Made by a program: the position numbers and the translations under genes. A DNA stretch of 64,000 nucleotides, from positions 1 to 64,000 of the forward strand of contig NZ_CP060296.1 of assembly GCF_014303735.1 (NCBI RefSeq), read 5' to 3'. Shown piece by piece: positions 25,254 through 47,599 of the stretch. The DNA comes from Variovorax sp. PAMC28562 (lineage in GTDB: Bacteria; Pseudomonadota; Gammaproteobacteria; Burkholderiales; Burkholderiaceae_C). Position 1 is the first letter of the stretch; each line of letters opens with the position of its first letter. The notes beneath the pieces are model-generated. The model was given only the letters and a program-made list of their open reading frames with translations. It did not search any database and was not told the origin of the DNA.

Positions 25254-25257
25254 TTAA

Positions 25258-25492
25258 CGGTTGGTGCTCGCTTTGGTTTTCAGGTCAAAGCAGTTCAACG
25301 GGAATCAGGATGGGATGCTGTGTATGTCTGAGTGGACACGCTTCGGCGCCCGAACCTGAGCTGCCCCCGCAACGGTAAGCGGACGCAAGCCCAGTGCTTG
25401 CAGCTCGTATTAAGTGCCCACTAGGTGAACGCCGCGCAAGCGACGGCCCGGGAAGGGAATACGGGTCGTCTTCGCCAGCCCGGATACCGGCC
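25258..25492 (+). promoter_or_regulatory. Cobalamin (AdoCbl) riboswitch
   Basis: The region begins with GGTTGGTGC, carries the strongly conserved core GCTGCCCCCGCAACGGTAAG (25360-25379), then a GCCCACTAGG box near 25418, and ends with GGAAGG ... CCAGCCCGGATACCGGCC (to 25492). This order is that of the cobalamin riboswitch. It precedes a 17-kb cobalamin synthesis operon, so binding of adenosylcobalamin should lower its expression. The 5' edge is set by the first conserved bases and the nearby TATAAT. Confidence 0.92.
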
Positions 25493-25500
25493 AATGAGGT

Positions 25501-25524
25501 GGCGCGTCATGCGAATGATGCGCC
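25501..25524 (+). promoter_or_regulatory. Hairpin with GNRA loop directly after the riboswitch
   Basis: GGCGCGTCAT and ATGATGCGCC pair over 10 bases with one G-T wobble around the loop GCGA, a GNRA tetraloop. It starts 8 bases after the aptamer. No U tract follows, so it may be part of the expression platform or a stabilising stem rather than a terminator. From here to the cobB start (25703) I see no gene. Confidence 0.5.
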
Positions 25525-43029: not shown

Positions 43030-43324
43030 GATGTCTGCAGCAGACAGTGGCTGGACTTTGCGGGTGGCGGACACCAGCGCACGTTCTCTCGAGGGTTAAG
43101 CGCGCGGCCCGAAAGCAGGTCTGCGCTGGCAACTTCTGCAACATCAACAGCGGTTGCAGCGGTTGTGATGCGATCAGCAGAGCTGAGTTCAAAGTTGGTG
43201 AGCTGTTCCTATTGCATAGGCCAACCAAGTGGGATTTTTCTCCCCAGACGGACGTCTGCTTGGGGCCCAAAGCCGAAGTTCGTTGTGCTCCATAGCGGAC
43301 GTTCGCCGGCCGCCTCGGGTCTTG
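43030..43324. other. Spacer between cobF and the accessory island
   Basis: There is no supported gene in this 295-base stretch. From about 43190 the base composition shifts to lower GC. It contains a copy of the island's leader element (43251-43281) and, beyond it, CATAGCGGACGTTCG. The left border of the island is therefore somewhere between 43030 and 43250. Confidence 0.5.
43251..43281 (-). repeat. Island leader element, copy 1
   Basis: On the plus strand it reads GACGTCTGCTTGGGGCCCAA then AGCCGAAGTTC, related to the other copies at their GTCTGCTT, GGCC and GCCGAAGT blocks. It lies beyond the stop of the last minus-strand gene of the island and is not attached to a recognised start codon. 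Confidence 0.45.
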
Positions 43325-43618
43325 TCAGCGTTCTTTGCCATCGAGGATTCGCACTACCTCGTCAAGCCACGCGCGGGTTGTGAGGCGGTCTGCGGTTGGA
43401 AGGTAATAGCAACCCAGATCGGCAACAGTCGCGGCAAGCTCGGCTTCCGAACCAGTCCTGGAGATCAGGTCGCGAAGTTCCTGTGCAGCGGCTCTCACCT
43501 CGTCATTCGGCGACTCGCTCACGTATAACTCCACAACAGCGGTCGCTGTCGGCGAATCATCGAAACAGTCCTGATGAAAGTACGCGCCGAATAGATCGTG
43601 GAGGTTGGGATACTGCAT
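43325..43618 (-). CDS. CdiI-like contact-dependent inhibition immunity protein
   Basis: This 97-residue acidic protein begins MQYPNLHDLFGAYFHQDC, has a middle helix set (EVRAAAQELRDLISR) and ends ADLGCYYLPTADRLTTRAWL followed by DEVVRILDGKER. The LHDLFGAYFHQD start and GCYY..ADG/R.T.R.WL end match a family of CdiI-type immunity proteins that neutralise CdiA toxins. No cdiA, cdiB or toxin gene is near, so it is an orphan. A copy of the island leader element abuts the start codon directly. The partner toxin, if any, is unknown. Confidence 0.75.
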   Translation of the reverse strand: MQYPNLHDLFGAYFHQDCFDDSPTATAVVELYVSESPNDEVRAAAQELRDLISRTGSEAELAATVADLGCYYLPTADRLTTRAWLDEVVRILDGKER

Positions 43619-43638
43619 CGAAGGTCCGTTAGTGGCCG
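43619..43638 (-). repeat. Island leader element, copy 2
   Basis: The plus-strand sequence CGAAGGTCCGTTAGTGGCCG touches the start codon of the CdiI-like gene. It matches the shared pattern GAAGGTCCGGTTCTGGCCG with few changes. Confidence 0.6.
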
Positions 43639-43641
43639 TTT

Positions 43642-44103
43642 TCAGGCTTCGGTGACATCTGCTGGAAGGACCCACTTGCTGAGCCAATGTTCGAAGTCCT
43701 GGGCGACTTCGCTCGCACTCTTTGTGTTGAGCTGGAAGCACACGACTGCCATCTCGCCCGACGAATCGGCCGATGACAAATCAAGGCAGTGCGGGGCGTC
43801 GCCGTCCGGCTGGATGACCAGGAGCGTGGGAGGTAGCGCGAAGTCATCCCGAGCCCGGATGGTTTCGCCGTACGTCGAGCCACCCGAAAGGTCCAGGGCG
43901 TTTCCGTCGATGATGCCGGCGACCTCGATGCCGCCTAGATTCAGTGCGCCCGTCAGGGCCAGGAACCGTCGGTAGCTTGGCGGCAGCCGGACTCCAAGCG
44001 AACGTTCGAGCGCTTGAATTTGCGCTTCATCCGCGCCGCCGGCTATCCAAGCATCCGTCCCGGCCGCCGTAGCAGCTTGGAGCCTCTCACGCACAGTTTT
44101 CAT
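43642..44103 (-). CDS. SMI1/KNR4 (SUKH) family immunity-like protein
   Basis: This encodes 153 residues. The SUKH-1 core is seen in IQALERSLGVRLPPSYRRFL (about 28-47), GGIEVAGI, and the C-terminal SEVAQDFEHWLSKWVL. In bacteria these proteins protect against polymorphic nuclease toxins, often as orphans. It lies 23 bases upstream of the CdiI-like gene on the same strand and has a leader-element copy 7 bases before its ATG. No toxin gene is in the window. Confidence 0.82.
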   Translation of the reverse strand: MKTVRERLQAATAAGTDAWIAGGADEAQIQALERSLGVRLPPSYRRFLALTGALNLGGIEVAGIIDGNALDLSGGSTYGETIRARDDFALPPTLLVIQPDGDAPHCLDLSSADSSGEMAVVCFQLNTKSASEVAQDFEHWLSKWVLPADVTEA

Positions 44104-44110
44104 GGTCCCC

Positions 44111-44137
44111 TCGAATGTCTGGTTCTGGCCGAATGGC
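44111..44137 (-). repeat. Island leader element, copy 3
   Basis: The plus-strand sequence TCGAATGTCTGGTTCTGGCC followed by GAATGGC lies 7 bases upstream of the SMI1/KNR4 gene start. It is one of the closest matches to the shared pattern. Confidence 0.6.
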
Positions 44138-44146
44138 AAAGTTCGT

Positions 44147-44563
44147 TCAATGGCCGCCGACAAGTGCGCCGATAGCCGCGGCCACAAGCGGCGTAAGCCA
44201 GTCCGCTTCGGAGAGCGCACCTGCCTTTTTTCTAAAGTGCTCGGTCACTGGCGTCCCCAAAAGTCGATCGACTTCATCGCCGTCAAGCCAAGCTGCGCTG
44301 CATTTCAGGCAGCAGTTGATAGCACCCGCACCGACTACCACCTTCCGCATCGGCACTGCATCGCGAGGGCAGATCACTTCGCGATCCCATTCTTCCCGAG
44401 GGCCGAGCGCGAGGTTGCGGGTGGCAACCTCATTCCTGACGAGGTCCGTGAAGAACGCTCCGGAGCAGATGTTGCAGTGCCACGCTGCGCCAACTTCCGG
44501 CGGTTGCTGAACAAGCTGGTGAGAATCGCGTGGACAGTTGTATTGCATGCAGTACCCGATCAT
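44147..44563 (-). CDS. Double zinc-ribbon (zf-TFIIB-like) protein
   Basis: This 138-residue protein has two Cys-pair modules: CPRDSHQ ... WHCNICSGAFF (about 11-37) and CPRDAVPMRKVVVGAGAINC with CLKCSAAWLDGDEVDRLL (about 65-105). The second is the classic zf-TFIIB pattern with C-x2-3-C and WLDxGE-like ending. The C-terminus LVAAAIGALVGG is hydrophobic and may attach to the membrane. ATG 44563 has GGAAG 4 bases upstream; ATG 44548 is an alternative. Function is unknown. A leader-element copy touches the start codon and supplies that ribosome-binding site. Confidence 0.7.
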   Translation of the reverse strand: MIGYCMQYNCPRDSHQLVQQPPEVGAAWHCNICSGAFFTDLVRNEVATRNLALGPREEWDREVICPRDAVPMRKVVVGAGAINCCLKCSAAWLDGDEVDRLLGTPVTEHFRKKAGALSEADWLTPLVAAAIGALVGGH

Positions 44564-44594
44564 CGAACTTCCGCTTTTGGCCGACTGTAGCCGG
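44564..44594 (-). repeat. Island leader element, copy 4
   Basis: The plus-strand sequence CGAACTTCCGCTTTTGGCCG followed by ACTGTAGCCGG touches the start codon of the zinc-ribbon gene. In coding direction it provides GGAAG as ribosome-binding site. Confidence 0.6.
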
Positions 44595-44605
44595 TCGTGG
44601 GATGG

Positions 44606-44623
44606 TGCTTCGGGCCCGAAGCA
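44606..44623. terminator. 18-bp perfect palindrome, possible terminator
   Basis: TGCTTCGGGCCCGAAGCA is a perfect palindrome followed on the plus strand by GTCATTTTT. It lies 26 bases beyond the stop of the small secreted protein gene. The T run favours plus-strand termination, while the nearby genes are on the minus strand, so its role is unclear. Confidence 0.35.
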
Positions 44624-44649
44624 GTCATTTTTCAACTCATGACTACGCC

Positions 44650-44961
44650 TCAATAAGCAGAGTGGCAAGGGAACGTTTTAGCGGCGTACTTAGTCATCAG
44701 CCGCGCTTCGTCTTCTCGTCTTCCATGCATAGCAAATTCGGTGACCTGCTTCCACTCAGTTCCTGAGAGTTCGCTGTCAAGAACTTTCGAAATGCATGAG
44801 CAAATCTGATCTGCTCGCATTGGCAACGTCTGCTGCTTGACTGCTTGTGCCCTGCAGCCTGCACCCACGGCACTCTTGTACTGCCGGATTAGGTCCGGTG
44901 TTGCTTCTTGAGAGAACACCAATAAGGGCAAAAAGGCGAGCGTCAGGAGAAAAGACTTCAT
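44650..44961 (-). CDS. Small secreted Cys-containing hypothetical protein
   Basis: This encodes 103 residues from the ATG at 44961. MKSFLLTLAFLPLLVFSQEA is a clear signal peptide with cleavage after FSQ or nearby. The mature part is helical, with Cys in GAGCRAQ, ICSC and FPC, which could form disulfides in the periplasm. I do not recognise the family. Its start overlaps the stop of the upstream membrane-protein gene in ATGA, so the two are a coupled pair and may work together. Confidence 0.65.
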   Translation of the reverse strand: MKSFLLTLAFLPLLVFSQEATPDLIRQYKSAVGAGCRAQAVKQQTLPMRADQICSCISKVLDSELSGTEWKQVTEFAMHGRREDEARLMTKYAAKTFPCHSAY

Positions 44962-45263
44962 GAGGTTTGTGACTCGTCTTGATTGTGAATAGAGCGACTT
45001 TTTGCCAGCAATCGACGGTAGTGGCGAACCGCGCCGAATGCGTACCAAGCTCCCAAAGAAAGTGCCAGTGTGGTGCCAAAAAAGCCCGGGACAGAAGGCG
45101 TAGTCAAAAGTAGAGCAAAGCCGCAGAACGCCACCACTAGGAAGCCACCGATGAACGTACAGCGAGGTATTAGCTTTAAGAGCGGAATGATGTGCGGCAC
45201 AACAAAGACAATCGCGAAGAGTGCCCCGATTGCGAAGAATGGGGTAAGGAACTGTTGATACAT
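44958..45263 (-). CDS. Small membrane hypothetical protein
   Basis: This 101-residue protein has three predicted membrane helices (about 8-30, 36-55, 58-78), with a basic C-terminal tail (YRRLLAKSRSIHNQDESQ). There are no recognised motifs. It is the first gene of a coupled pair with the small secreted protein gene. A leader-element copy lies 11 bases before its start. Orphan immunity proteins against pore-forming or lipid II toxins are often small membrane proteins like this, but nothing here proves that role. Confidence 0.6.
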   Translation of the reverse strand: MYQQFLTPFFAIGALFAIVFVVPHIIPLLKLIPRCTFIGGFLVVAFCGFALLLTTPSVPGFFGTTLALSLGAWYAFGAVRHYRRLLAKSRSIHNQDESQTS

Positions 45264-45274
45264 GGGCTTATGGG

Positions 45275-45305
45275 TCGAACGTCTGCTTGTGGCCGGTTGC
45301 CGACT
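45275..45305 (-). repeat. Island leader element, copy 5
   Basis: The plus-strand sequence TCGAACGTCTGCTTGTGGCC followed by GGTTGCCGACT lies 11 bases upstream of the small membrane-protein gene and just beyond the stop (45304) of the interrupted secreted-protein gene. Confidence 0.55.
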
Positions 45306-45843
45306 AACGAGGTGCGCGTTGATAGTCCGTAAGTATTTGGCTCAAAGCTCTCTGGAAGTTAAGGTATCCGGGCGAGGCAGCATTCAGCCGCTGGCCCATC
45401 CGACGCTGAACATTTTCATTTGCCCTTTTGTAGGCTTTGCGAAAACTTGCGCCGGCTGCGGATTGGAGAAAGTTAACAGAGGCCGCGAGTTCGGCATCAG
45501 TCATTTGAGCCTCCAGTTCTTCTGCTACCAAAGGCTGAAAGTCATCCGACTTTAAGACGCCGCACACGCTTTGTTCATAGGTGCGATAGGCCTCTTGCAA
45601 GCGCGCCCAATAGGCGGAGCGAGGACCAATCCCGCCGAATGTTTTTGGATTGGCGAGGTAGATGGCCTCTGGATCTCAACCCGAGTTCGTCGTCTGCGCG
45701 CACTTCCCCTCGGAATCGCTCCGTTGGGTATCAAAGTCAAGCACCCGGGCAAGGCGAACGGCAAGCTCCGATTTTTGGGAGTCCTGAGCCTGTGCAAGTG
45801 CGCAGGAAGCTGCCAGAAGAAGGAAGACGATGTTGCGGAGCAT
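45304..45843 (-). pseudogene. Secreted DUF2059-like protein broken by an in-frame stop
   Basis: Reading from the ATG at 45843, the frame gives a signal peptide (MLRNIVFLLLAASCALAQAQ), continues to residue 55 (CAQTTNSG), then meets TGA at 45678-45676. It stays open in the same frame for another 123 codons (DPEAIYLANPKTFGG onward) to the TGA at 45304. Past the stop, FQPLVAEELEAQMTDAELAA and SVNFLQSAAGASFRKAYKRA resemble the DUF2059 type. Because the frame and coding character continue across the stop, a single nonsense change is the simplest reading. A sequencing error is possible. No selenocysteine signal is visible. Confidence 0.7.
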
Positions 45844-45970
45844 GGTGACGAGCGAGCGATGAAGATGCAGGGTTGCCCATGCCGACCCCGCAAATGCTTG
45901 TTTGTATGCGCAAACGGTAGTCTGCTTGTGAGTTCGGCCTGCTGACTCTATATCCCGCTCTTGTAAAACG

Positions 45971-46028
45971 CCAACGAGTCGCTCGGAGCCAAATTGACCA
46001 ACCGTGTCGAAGGACCGCTCCTGGCCAG
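45971..46028. repeat. Long island repeat, copy A
   Basis: This 58-base block matches 46574-46630 at about 48 positions by eye. Both contain GCTCGGAGC, AAATTGA, CAACCGTGT and GACCGCTC then TGGCC. The right-hand part is a version of the leader element (GTCGAAGGACCGCTCCTGGCC). It lies between two decayed genes. Confidence 0.6.
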
Positions 46029-46036
46029 ATCCTGCC

Positions 46037-46377
46037 TTAGCTCGCACTACTCTCGGCGGTGTTGGCGTTTGCCCCAGATTGCGCCTTGAGCGCCCGCAGG
46101 GCCTCGCTACACGCGCCCCATGCTGCATTGAAGGCTGGCTCATCTTTCGCGAACACGTCGCTGAGGCTTCCGGGGCCAGTCATGGCCGTCGCCGAATTCA
46201 GATGCAAAGCCTCCGCCACATCACCTTGCTCAAGTGCAGTTCCGATTGCCTCGAACCGGCTGGCCCACCGCTCAAGCCCCTCACTGCGCAGCGCAACAAC
46301 GAAGTCGCGAACGAGCGCCGCCGCCTTTTTCTGTTCGACTTCGGGGATGTGTTCATCGTTGATTTAGAGGGCTGCAT
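46037..46377 (-). pseudogene. Small hypothetical gene with a 1-base frameshift near its start
   Basis: A coherent frame runs INDEHIPEVEQKKAAALVRD ... FVVALRSEGLERWASRFEAI ... AMTGPGSLSDVFAKDEPAFN ... AWGACSEALRALKAQ to the stop at 46037, but has no ATG and is preceded by TAA. The ATG at 46377, touching a leader-element copy as in the neighbouring genes, opens MQPSK in another frame. Adding one A in the AAATC run (about 46361-46365) would give MQPSKINDEHIPEVEQ as one gene. So a one-base deletion, or a sequencing error, is likely. A short product from GTG 46219 is the only intact alternative. Function is unknown. Confidence 0.6.
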
Positions 46378-46407
46378 TGAAGGTCCGGTTCTGGCCGAAA
46401 GCCGAAG
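46378..46407 (-). repeat. Island leader element, copy 6
   Basis: The plus-strand sequence TGAAGGTCCGGTTCTGGCCG followed by AAAGCCGAAG touches the start codon at 46377. It is close to the consensus of the family. Confidence 0.65.
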
Positions 46408-46551
46408 TCACTGCGCCGTTTGATACAGGATCTCACCCGTGATGGCGACAGCGAGTTCCTCGTCGTCCCATTCGGAGTCATCTGAAAATCCCGTTTGATG
46501 CCGGCGCTTGGCCTCAGCCAAAACAAGATCGAGCGCGACGCAGTGCCGAGT
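46408..46551 (-). pseudogene. C-terminal gene remnant
   Basis: An open stretch of 47 codons with strong coding character reads TRHCVALDLVLAEAKRRHQT, GFSDDSEWDDEELAVAITGE, ILYQTAQ-stop. It has no start codon, and a TAG lies directly upstream. Its acidic helix-rich tail looks like the end of a small protein whose 5' part has been lost. The upstream sequence is instead copy B of the long repeat, suggesting that a recombination between repeats removed the start. Confidence 0.5.
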
Positions 46552-46573
46552 CTATCGGCCACCCTTGTAGATA

Positions 46574-46630
46574 CCAGCGCGTTGCTCGGAGCGAAATTGA
46601 ACAACCGTGTTGTACGACCGCTCTGGCCGG
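46574..46630. repeat. Long island repeat, copy B
   Basis: This 57-base block pairs with 45971-46028 (about 83 percent identical by eye, one gap). It lies where the missing 5' part of the adjacent gene remnant would be expected. Confidence 0.6.
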
Positions 46631-46645
46631 TCATTGCCGCTACTT

Positions 46646-46927
46646 CTACGGCTCGACTGTCGCCGAAAACTTTAGCCAACTAGGGTGGACGAAGGAAAGA
46701 TCTACAAAATCGTCGAAGTAAATAAGACTTAAGGCCTCCAGGCGCTTGATCAAGCCGTCGCACGCTTCTTGGCCAAAGGAAGCACCGGTGGATAGTAGGT
46801 CCGGGTCCTCGCCAAGCCAGGCCCCGATTTCCAAGGCGGTGAGAACAGCTTCGAGGGCAACGCTCCTGCGCGACAAGGCAGCGCGGCGGATGACGATCCC
46901 GTACTCGAATGTGATGGCGACGGTCAT
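46646..46927 (-). CDS. Small hypothetical protein
   Basis: This encodes 93 residues from the ATG at 46927. The sequence MTVAITFEYGIVIRRAALSR, ALEAVLTALEIGAWLGEDPD, LIKRLEALSLIYFDDFVDLS suggests a mixed alpha/beta fold with an acidic, aromatic end. No family is recognised. A leader-element copy lies 3 bases upstream of its start. Given its neighbours, an orphan immunity role is possible but not shown. Confidence 0.6.
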   Translation of the reverse strand: MTVAITFEYGIVIRRAALSRRSVALEAVLTALEIGAWLGEDPDLLSTGASFGQEACDGLIKRLEALSLIYFDDFVDLSFVHPSWLKFSATVEP

Positions 46928-46930
46928 GAT

Positions 46931-46960
46931 TGAAGGTCTGGTTTTGGCCCGATAGCGGCC
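46931..46960 (-). repeat. Island leader element, copy 7
   Basis: The plus-strand sequence TGAAGGTCTGGTTTTGGCCC followed by GATAGCGGCC lies 3 bases before the start of the 93-residue protein gene and 9 bases beyond the stop of the next gene. GGCCAAAAC/GGCCGCTATC give it partial inverted symmetry around GGCC. Confidence 0.6.
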
Positions 46961-46969
46961 ATTCTTCCC

Positions 46970-47425
46970 TTAGTCCGAACTAGAGCCAATCAGCATCTCC
47001 GCCTCATTTGCCCCTGTGATGAGAAGCCCGAAATCCCAGAACACTGGATAGGCGGGATGTCCGCTTGCCAGCCGAAACGTTTCAACAGAAATCGCCCTGT
47101 GGGCCGCACTCTCGATTTGACTCGCCAAGGCAGCCAGGGCATTCGTGAACTGCGCCGAATGCAAAGAAGCCGGATCGTTACCGTCGGCCTGAGAGCCGAT
47201 GTATGTGAGGCACGAGCGAGTTTCTGAGATTGCTTCGATGGCTGAGACGGCACGAATCTCCTCGACCACGACGTCAGCGCGCGCCAATGCATCCGCAATG
47301 AGCTGGCTCGAGACGCTTCTTGCGCGACGTGGTGTGGTGTACGCACGCAAGAACACCGAATAGTTGCAGCCGTTTTCGTTGAGGCATGTCGAAATGTCGT
47401 TCAAGGTCTGCTGGCGAATGTGCAT
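46970..47425 (-). CDS. Hypothetical protein of the accessory island
   Basis: This encodes 151 residues from ATG 47425 (a TTG one codon earlier is possible). The N-terminus MHIRQQTLNDISTCLNENGC is polar; the middle is helical with AALASQIESAAHRAISVETF; the end is GHPAYPVFWDFGLLITGANE and AEMLIGSSSD. I recall this ending from uncharacterised proteins in similar islands but cannot name a family. No leader-element copy is clear upstream, so this gene may mark the right edge of the island. Confidence 0.65.
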   Translation of the reverse strand: MHIRQQTLNDISTCLNENGCNYSVFLRAYTTPRRARSVSSQLIADALARADVVVEEIRAVSAIEAISETRSCLTYIGSQADGNDPASLHSAQFTNALAALASQIESAAHRAISVETFRLASGHPAYPVFWDFGLLITGANEAEMLIGSSSD

Positions 47426-47599
47426 CAAATGCCGACGAGCTCTGCAGATCGTCCGATTGTGATTAAGCGACTCTAGTCCCTGTCCACAGCGCTTTGATGT
47501 CGCTGCGATGAGACCAGTTCAAAAATTCCAAAGCCCGTTGCACCGCTGGAGCGACCTTCGTTCTTGTACGCCGGTTGGCTACTGAAAGCTAACTGCGCA

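Follow-up and report, generated by a model that had tools for sequence, protein, structure and literature searches.

A 64,000-nucleotide stretch from Variovorax sp. PAMC28562 (positions 1 to 64,000 of contig NZ_CP060296.1, hereafter the window) carries an island of small genes at 43325-47425. The open reading frame (ORF) list of the window places these genes on the minus strand, in agreement with the first-pass annotation, which had described at least nine small genes or remnants on one strand, two immunity types among them, and had proposed a polyimmunity locus. Pfam searches confirmed both immunity types, CdiI_2 and SUKH/SMI1_KNR4 (the latter by PF14567, E 4.9e-20, and PF09346, E 1.2e-16), as well as a member with a TFIIB-type zinc ribbon. 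A DUF2059 protein is split over two frames, the rest have no Pfam family, and none of the nine proteins scanned matched an NCBIfam family. Two further claims, decay of several genes and a GC content below that of the flanks, were borne out by the broken DUF2059 gene and a degraded unit with a remnant ORF, and by a GC of 0.572 over 43240-47500; none of 1025 segments of equal length outside the island had less than 0.632.

The island genes are separated by a degenerate repeat of about 30 nucleotides with the core CGGCCA, whose right arm extends into the leader of the next gene; seven copies share one direction and two are palindromic. The site reads GNCNNNANNCGGCCARRANCNGNCNTTCG, covering positions -12 to +17 around the GG/CC junction. 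With up to 3 mismatches, the repeat pattern matched 7 places in the window, 6 of them inside the island, against 0.04 expected. Delimited by these sites, the island forms an array of some eight cassettes that span site to site and mostly hold one gene each. The layout, which had been called cassette-like by a reader who missed the repeat, is literally of that kind, since homology units stop at the repeat. The features are as follows.

43249..43277, minus strand: near-palindromic site at the array end; a like palindrome also follows the last directional site in the arrays L037, L038, L039 and L032
43265..43635, minus strand: cassette with the CdiI_2 gene 43325-43618 (PF18593, E 1.9e-22); sites at both ends
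43619..43647, minus strand: recombination-site copy, matrix score 30.7, genome-wide E 0.002
43635..44128, minus strand: cassette with the SUKH/SMI1_KNR4 gene 43642-44103; DNA identity to relatives is confined to the unit
44112..44140, minus strand: recombination-site copy, matrix score 34.8, E 2.1e-4
44128..44580, minus strand: cassette with the TFIIB-type zinc-ribbon protein, ORF 44147-44563 (PF13453, E 4.3e-7)
44564..44592, minus strand: recombination-site copy, matrix score 28.4, E 0.0066
44603..44631, plus strand: second palindrome (GCTTCGGGCCCGAAGC), resembling array-end sites; 93% identity over 29 nt to L038
44580..45292, minus strand: cassette of two ORFs, membrane-like 44958-45263 and signal-peptide-like 44650-44961 (both by eye); no Pfam or NCBIfam family
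45276..45304, minus strand: recombination-site copy, matrix score 31.8, E 1.6e-4
45292..46024, minus strand: cassette with the broken DUF2059 gene, two parts in different frames (PF09832, E 2.3e-5)
46008..46036, minus strand: recombination-site copy, matrix score 31.0, E 4.3e-4
46024..46394, minus strand: decayed cassette with the remnant ORF 46037-46219; no Pfam family
46378..46406, minus strand: recombination-site copy, matrix score 34.2, E 2.1e-4
46394..46947, minus strand: cassette with a 93-residue protein, 46646-46927; no Pfam or NCBIfam family
46931..46959, minus strand: recombination-site copy, the best of the island, matrix score 37.6, E 2.8e-5
46947..47440, minus strand: first cassette of the array, with a 152-residue protein, 46970-47428; no Pfam family; no above-threshold site upstream, so that its upstream boundary is unsettled

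A covariance model of the site found 23 copies (E ≤ 0.1) in the whole genome (4.69 Mb, one contig), mostly clustered at 43-47 kb, 656-662 kb, 2377 kb, 3554 kb and 4254 kb, with single places besides. Sites were present in all 13 Variovorax genomes, this one included, at 2-32 each (E ≤ 0.1). The relative G402 contains an array of about 40 kb (3848-3888 kb) with 50 matrix hits at a permissive score above 10, and large arrays also occur in G406 and G407. One of the arrays of G409 holds an intact relative of the broken DUF2059 gene, a single ORF 57% identical. Sites from the earlier pattern served to train the site matrix, so that conservation counts for the 156 sites collected are partly circular. 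The two halves of the site do not covary, with 43.5% of positions forming standard pairs against 43.0% in shuffles, as expected if halves are re-joined at the core; a hairpin site with covarying arms was thus not supported.

The intervals between sites behave as gene-sized units. Among 125 intervals between neighbouring sites of the same direction, the longest ORF ran in the site direction in 101 and opposite to it in 24; the medians were 554 bp for the interval, 43 nt from site to start and 27 nt from gene end to site. The SUKH cassette shares 93% DNA identity with Variovorax ginsengisoli, confined to 43624-44134, that is, site to site, and recurs with nearly the same ends in Acidovorax (82%) and in G403 (85%). 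It was found in 3 of 61 Variovorax genomes, own included. The first-pass annotation had named stable core genes of the genus as what would refute it; the check, run for the SUKH gene alone, showed this gene to be accessory and leaves the claim standing. One cassette exists in two arrays of the genome itself, at 658 and 2377 kb and thus 1.7 Mb apart, with 97% identity over 535 bp and three of its four ends within 20 nt of a site, the fourth lying 69 nt off.

The same boundaries emerged when many units were considered together. Across 23 array loci, BLAST gave 61 segments of 120 bp or longer, and 50 of their 122 ends lay within 25 nt of a site; 500 random shifts gave 10.2 such ends on average and never more than 19. 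Averaged over 36 aligned boundaries, 15 of them five-prime and 21 three-prime, identity switched between -3 and +4; the segments used had sites in both sequences, a length of 180 bp or more and an identity of 72% or more. At gene starts, identity stayed at the background level as far as -3 and was high beginning with +4, and at gene ends the order was reversed. Exchange therefore appears to fall within CGGCCA. As read from the sequences, cassettes with homologues in other arrays, species and genera often resemble these between the two cores and differ from them beyond the cores.

A candidate enzyme was found with the larger arrays. A search of five Variovorax genomes for PF00589 genes gave, among others, a phage-type gene just outside the G402 array, small ones at its end and inside it, and remnants in the G406 array. 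The small tyrosine recombinase has about 205 residues and is essentially a catalytic domain. In the one protein examined over its full length of 207 residues, the PF00589 match begins at residue 40, which leaves hardly any room for a core-binding domain. The active-site R, K, H, R, H and Y are invariant in all 13 aligned members, which come from several classes and have 72% mean column identity; the PF00589 domain together with these residues identifies it as a tyrosine recombinase. The G402 protein is 97% identical to one of V. paradoxus. The gene occurs in 6 of 21 relatives, all Variovorax and some with broken copies, in 70 of 398 Pseudomonadota genomes (E ≤ 1e-25) and in 434 of 72,556 plasmids, and at least 8000 database proteins are related to it.

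The association of this gene with the site extends beyond the genus. A matrix trained only on arrays was scanned over the flanks of 35 of the 42 recombinase loci L118-L159, the broken or partial L120, L123 and L125-L129 being left out, with the 99% quantile of 1400 single-letter shuffles as threshold. At 25 of the 35 loci, among them 22 of the 30 from other genera, an outward-pointing site lay within 180 nt downstream of the gene, and at 14 such a site lay upstream; inward-pointing sites numbered six downstream and one upstream. The recombinase gene of G442, a genome from another class, is followed by five palindromic versions of the site spaced 369-930 bp apart. On three Sinorhizobium meliloti plasmids whose contexts otherwise differ, the recombinase gene itself forms a common segment of about 670-770 bp. 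On Pantoea plasmids the core reads TGTGCCA or TGAGCGA. Two units from these plasmids recur with almost the same ends: a GNAT unit in six other records (H42-H47, of which one is shorter) and, among the matches listed, a chemotaxis-receptor unit in 19 (H73-H91). These two units are neighbours sharing one site in NZ_CP022517.1 and lie 10 kb apart in NZ_CP045721.1.

These results suggest that the island is an array of mobile cassettes flanked by sites of about 30 bp, with the small tyrosine recombinase as the putative catalyst, a reading to which we assign a probability of about 80%. Its descriptive part, namely directed sites, one gene per interval, homology units ending at the core, and homologous cassettes across arrays, species and genera, is established at the level of sequence comparison, and site-specific recombination is presumably the process behind it. 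Given its association with the sites, the small recombinase or a close relative quite probably moves the cassettes. In such a mechanism, each cassette would start with a right half-site and end with a left half-site, and two sites would recombine within the 6-bp core, so that a whole gene with its leader would be excised or inserted and read in the direction of the array. The catalyst would be the conserved recombinase of about 205 residues from the large Variovorax arrays, which also lies beside the same site in other classes. The genome of the window would have lost this gene or never possessed it, and the island would be static or slowly decaying, moving only through a recombinase supplied in trans or through ordinary recombination. 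As a whole, such arrays may serve as a shared store of small accessory genes, including but not mainly immunity genes against the toxins of rivals.

Several observations weigh against this interpretation. The genome of the window has no small recombinase, as judged from its PF00589 genes and a homologue search, and across the genus the presence of the gene (6 of 13 genomes, some with broken copies only) is unrelated to the number of sites: 15, 29, 9, 9, 7 and 17 with the recombinase, and 23, 8, 9, 32, 4, 12 and 2 without it. Site counts vary with the threshold, G402 giving 50 matrix hits over 40 kb (score above 10) against 29 genome-wide by the covariance model (E ≤ 0.1), and dense arrays of the exact site type are mostly confined to Variovorax; under stricter filters the site was found in 23 of 120 genomes of the family at E ≤ 0.01, usually once or twice. 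As many as 72 of the 122 segment ends were not within 25 nt of a site. The aligned boundary pairs are not independent (6 of the 15 five-prime ones represent one SUKH family), and closeness of their ends to sites was a condition of their selection; they inform only on how sharp the switch is and where it falls. No above-threshold downstream site was present at 10 of the 35 recombinase loci, the 30 loci from outside the genus were those of the top-scoring relatives and not randomly drawn, and the Acidovorax plasmids L160 and L161 had no site in 20.6 kb. The AlphaFold model of the recombinase was too poor to use (mean predicted local distance difference test score, pLDDT, 53.7). Neither an excised circle nor a clean empty site came to light, and no recombination event was observed; a strain-level empty site was sought in the Sinorhizobium and Pantoea plasmids, where the contexts were too different.

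The missing recombinase also bears on the most serious alternative, in which the cassettes are real site-specific units moved by another enzyme, either host XerC/XerD or an unknown one, and the small recombinase is a frequent passenger. This genome and six other Variovorax genomes (some incomplete) have sites and no match to the small recombinase, and in G402 the recombinase itself lies as a cassette, both in favour of this alternative. Against a mere passenger, the same site is found at a near-constant short distance from the recombinase gene, pointing outward, in other families and classes, and in the five Variovorax genomes no other PF00589 gene lies within about 10 kb of the arrays except the phage-type integrase just outside that of G402. 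We consider this alternative unlikely.

The content of the cassettes bears on the view that selection gathered immunity genes singly into a polyimmunity island, with a repeat resembling repetitive extragenic palindromic (REP) or terminator elements and having no role in gene movement beyond ordinary homologous recombination. For this content, 116 cassette proteins were taken (one per interval, the longest ORF if it reached 70 residues, together with the island genes; some are homologous to one another and some perhaps not genes). They matched 59 families overall, the largest group being GNAT acetyltransferases (9 proteins matching PF00583). Immunity-named families accounted for 7 or 8 of the 116 among the matches listed, namely four SUKH proteins of one ortholog group, one CdiI_2, one Imm33 and two Imm33-like, one of which is perhaps the Imm33 protein itself; anti-phage families were rare, PADLOC matching at most 5 of the 116. 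In the island, 2 of about nine genes or remnants have immunity families, short of a locus made up mostly of immunity genes. The CdiI_2 and SUKH genes, Imm33 in related arrays and a TssK-family type VI secretion gene (PF05936) adjoining one array of the same genome do speak for this view. The low share of immunity families, the single direction of most arrays, and halves re-joined within about 6 bp in unrelated contexts at a degenerate site that seems too short and variable for homologous recombination make this view improbable, clearly more so than movement by another enzyme. The earlier designation as a polyimmunity locus is thus only partly right: the two immunity cassettes and the cassette layout stand, and the content is mixed, with acetyltransferases in the lead. 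Within these arrays, so far as families can be assigned from sequence, immunity genes are a minority cargo.

Least probable of all, and hardly credible, is an ordinary integron cassette cluster without integrase and with unusual attC sites. The size and content of the cassettes recall those of integrons, yet the R' box GTTRRRY was found within 30 nt of only 3 of the 156 sites compared with 5 of 156 random windows, by which attC sites were rejected; the two arms lack covariation, and the associated G402 recombinase reached 18.9 bits with the integron-integrase model TIGR02249, whose cut-off is 265. In the window's genome an integrase was sought by PF00589, and none of the three genes so found is near an array.

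The mobile-cassette reading nevertheless invites comparison with several known systems. Integrons and integrase-less integron arrays (CALINs) comprise an IntI integrase, attC sites and cassette arrays with and without the integrase. The arrays described here are similarly co-directional and built of mostly single small-gene cassettes of about 0.5 kb with mixed content, with or without a recombinase, and as in an integron the cassettes are bounded by sites and exchanged as units; lacking a recombinase in its own genome, the island therefore resembles a CALIN. They differ in having no attC motif and no recombinase matching the IntI model, in a crossover in the middle of a site of about 30 bp that leaves a half-site at each cassette end, and in a recombinase gene sometimes located inside the array, with outward sites on both sides in some lineages. 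The pdif modules of Acinetobacter are bounded by XerC/XerD sites of about 28 bp with a 6-bp centre. They likewise consist of genes bounded by short tyrosine-recombinase sites, whereas the present arrays hold dozens of co-oriented units and are found with a small recombinase; the CGGCCA-type site presumably also differs from the dif consensus. FimB/FimE DNA invertases are catalytic-domain-only tyrosine recombinases of about 200 residues without a core-binding domain. The small recombinase shares this size and architecture and weakly matches NF007371 (27.3 bits), and it differs in being tied to cassette arrays rather than to one invertible promoter and in its high conservation across several classes.

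According to the available part of a tyrosine-recombinase survey (PMC8138268), simple enzymes usually have core-binding and catalytic domains; no description of the small-recombinase group was found in that part. The excerpted text of PMC12247911, citing Ross 2019, describes recombinase-associated acquired interbacterial defence (rAID) arrays of Bacteroidales, which combine a tyrosine recombinase, co-oriented short genes, conserved intergenic motifs and SUKH immunity genes. The conserved intergenic motif, the co-oriented short genes and SUKH genes recur here, and a recombinase beside the array is present in G402, broken in G406 and absent at the window. As far as that text allows, the present arrays differ in belonging to Pseudomonadota and in their mostly non-immunity content, which is no array of orphan immunity genes. 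No description of the site or system was found in the open-access literature searched, and six literal site words did not occur there; most subscription papers were outside this scope, and a prior description is possible.

The surroundings of the island were also inspected. The first-pass annotation had stated that no toxin, secretion gene, integrase or transposase is nearby. This holds for integrases, the three PF00589 genes of the genome lying elsewhere, the closest 564 kb from the window, and for toxin and secretion families in nine scanned neighbouring or large proteins, an annotation that did not cover every gene of the window; transposases were outside the profile search. A scan for sigma-70 promoters and terminators gave no signal above chance, and the sole Rfam match in the window was a cobalamin riboswitch at 25257-25509. 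A DNA search with the whole island in 399 genomes of the family (two candidates per genome scored) gave, outside the own genome, matches limited to the flanking ABM-like and cyn genes and the palindrome region. One idea placed the island at the cobalamin-gene junction where the recombinase lies on an Acidovorax plasmid; it was rejected, since the two loci involve different ends of the cob cluster.

Further observations concern the other arrays. The second array of this genome (L035:4993-13300, 654-662 kb), with about nine sites, is the one adjoining the TssK-family gene (E 6.9e-150), and its cassettes encode GNAT, MAPEG, nucleotidyltransferase, af470-like monooxygenase and glutathione-transferase proteins. 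Near-perfect palindromes of the GCTTCGGGCCCGAAGC type lie at 43249-43277 and 44603-44631 of the window and at L037 10475, L039 7420, L038 5672 and L032 13820, and in several arrays such a palindrome comes after the last directional site; in L037 and L039, both arrays of this genome, it opens a 214-bp stretch that is 88% alike. Translations across the palindromic site at 43229-43300 resemble hypothetical proteins annotated over repeats in alphaproteobacterial genomes, and many annotated ORFs of this repeat-spanning type may be sites of the CGGCCA family.

In Variovorax the recombinase is often broken or partial (L104:14126-14572, L120, L125-L129), with an internal deletion in G406 and a stop codon in G403, as if arrays regularly lose the gene. 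Metallophosphoesterase genes lie within about 6 kb of it on three unrelated plasmids (L165, L164 and L168), and in Pantoea one such gene seems to be a site-bounded unit itself. On the plasmids L160 and L162 the recombinase adjoins larger cargo (cobalamin and phosphonate/phosphite genes), and the moved unit may therefore not always be a single small gene.

Among the platforms by which bacteria collect gene cassettes, integrons are considered the principal one. The arrays described here likely represent a second, independent platform across Pseudomonadota chromosomes and plasmids, in which a catalytic-domain-only tyrosine recombinase, at times itself a cassette, would swap single genes at a double-stranded site of about 30 bp with a 6-bp core, in arrays of up to about 50 sites and without any integron part. 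A parallel platform with a different enzyme and site should be invisible to attC-based tools. If it exists, many small 'hypothetical' genes behind a short palindromic repeat would be the cargo of a recombinase platform, the one-at-a-time movement of small accessory genes, immunity genes included, would be explained, and a single short site would make the fate of such 'orphan' genes testable.

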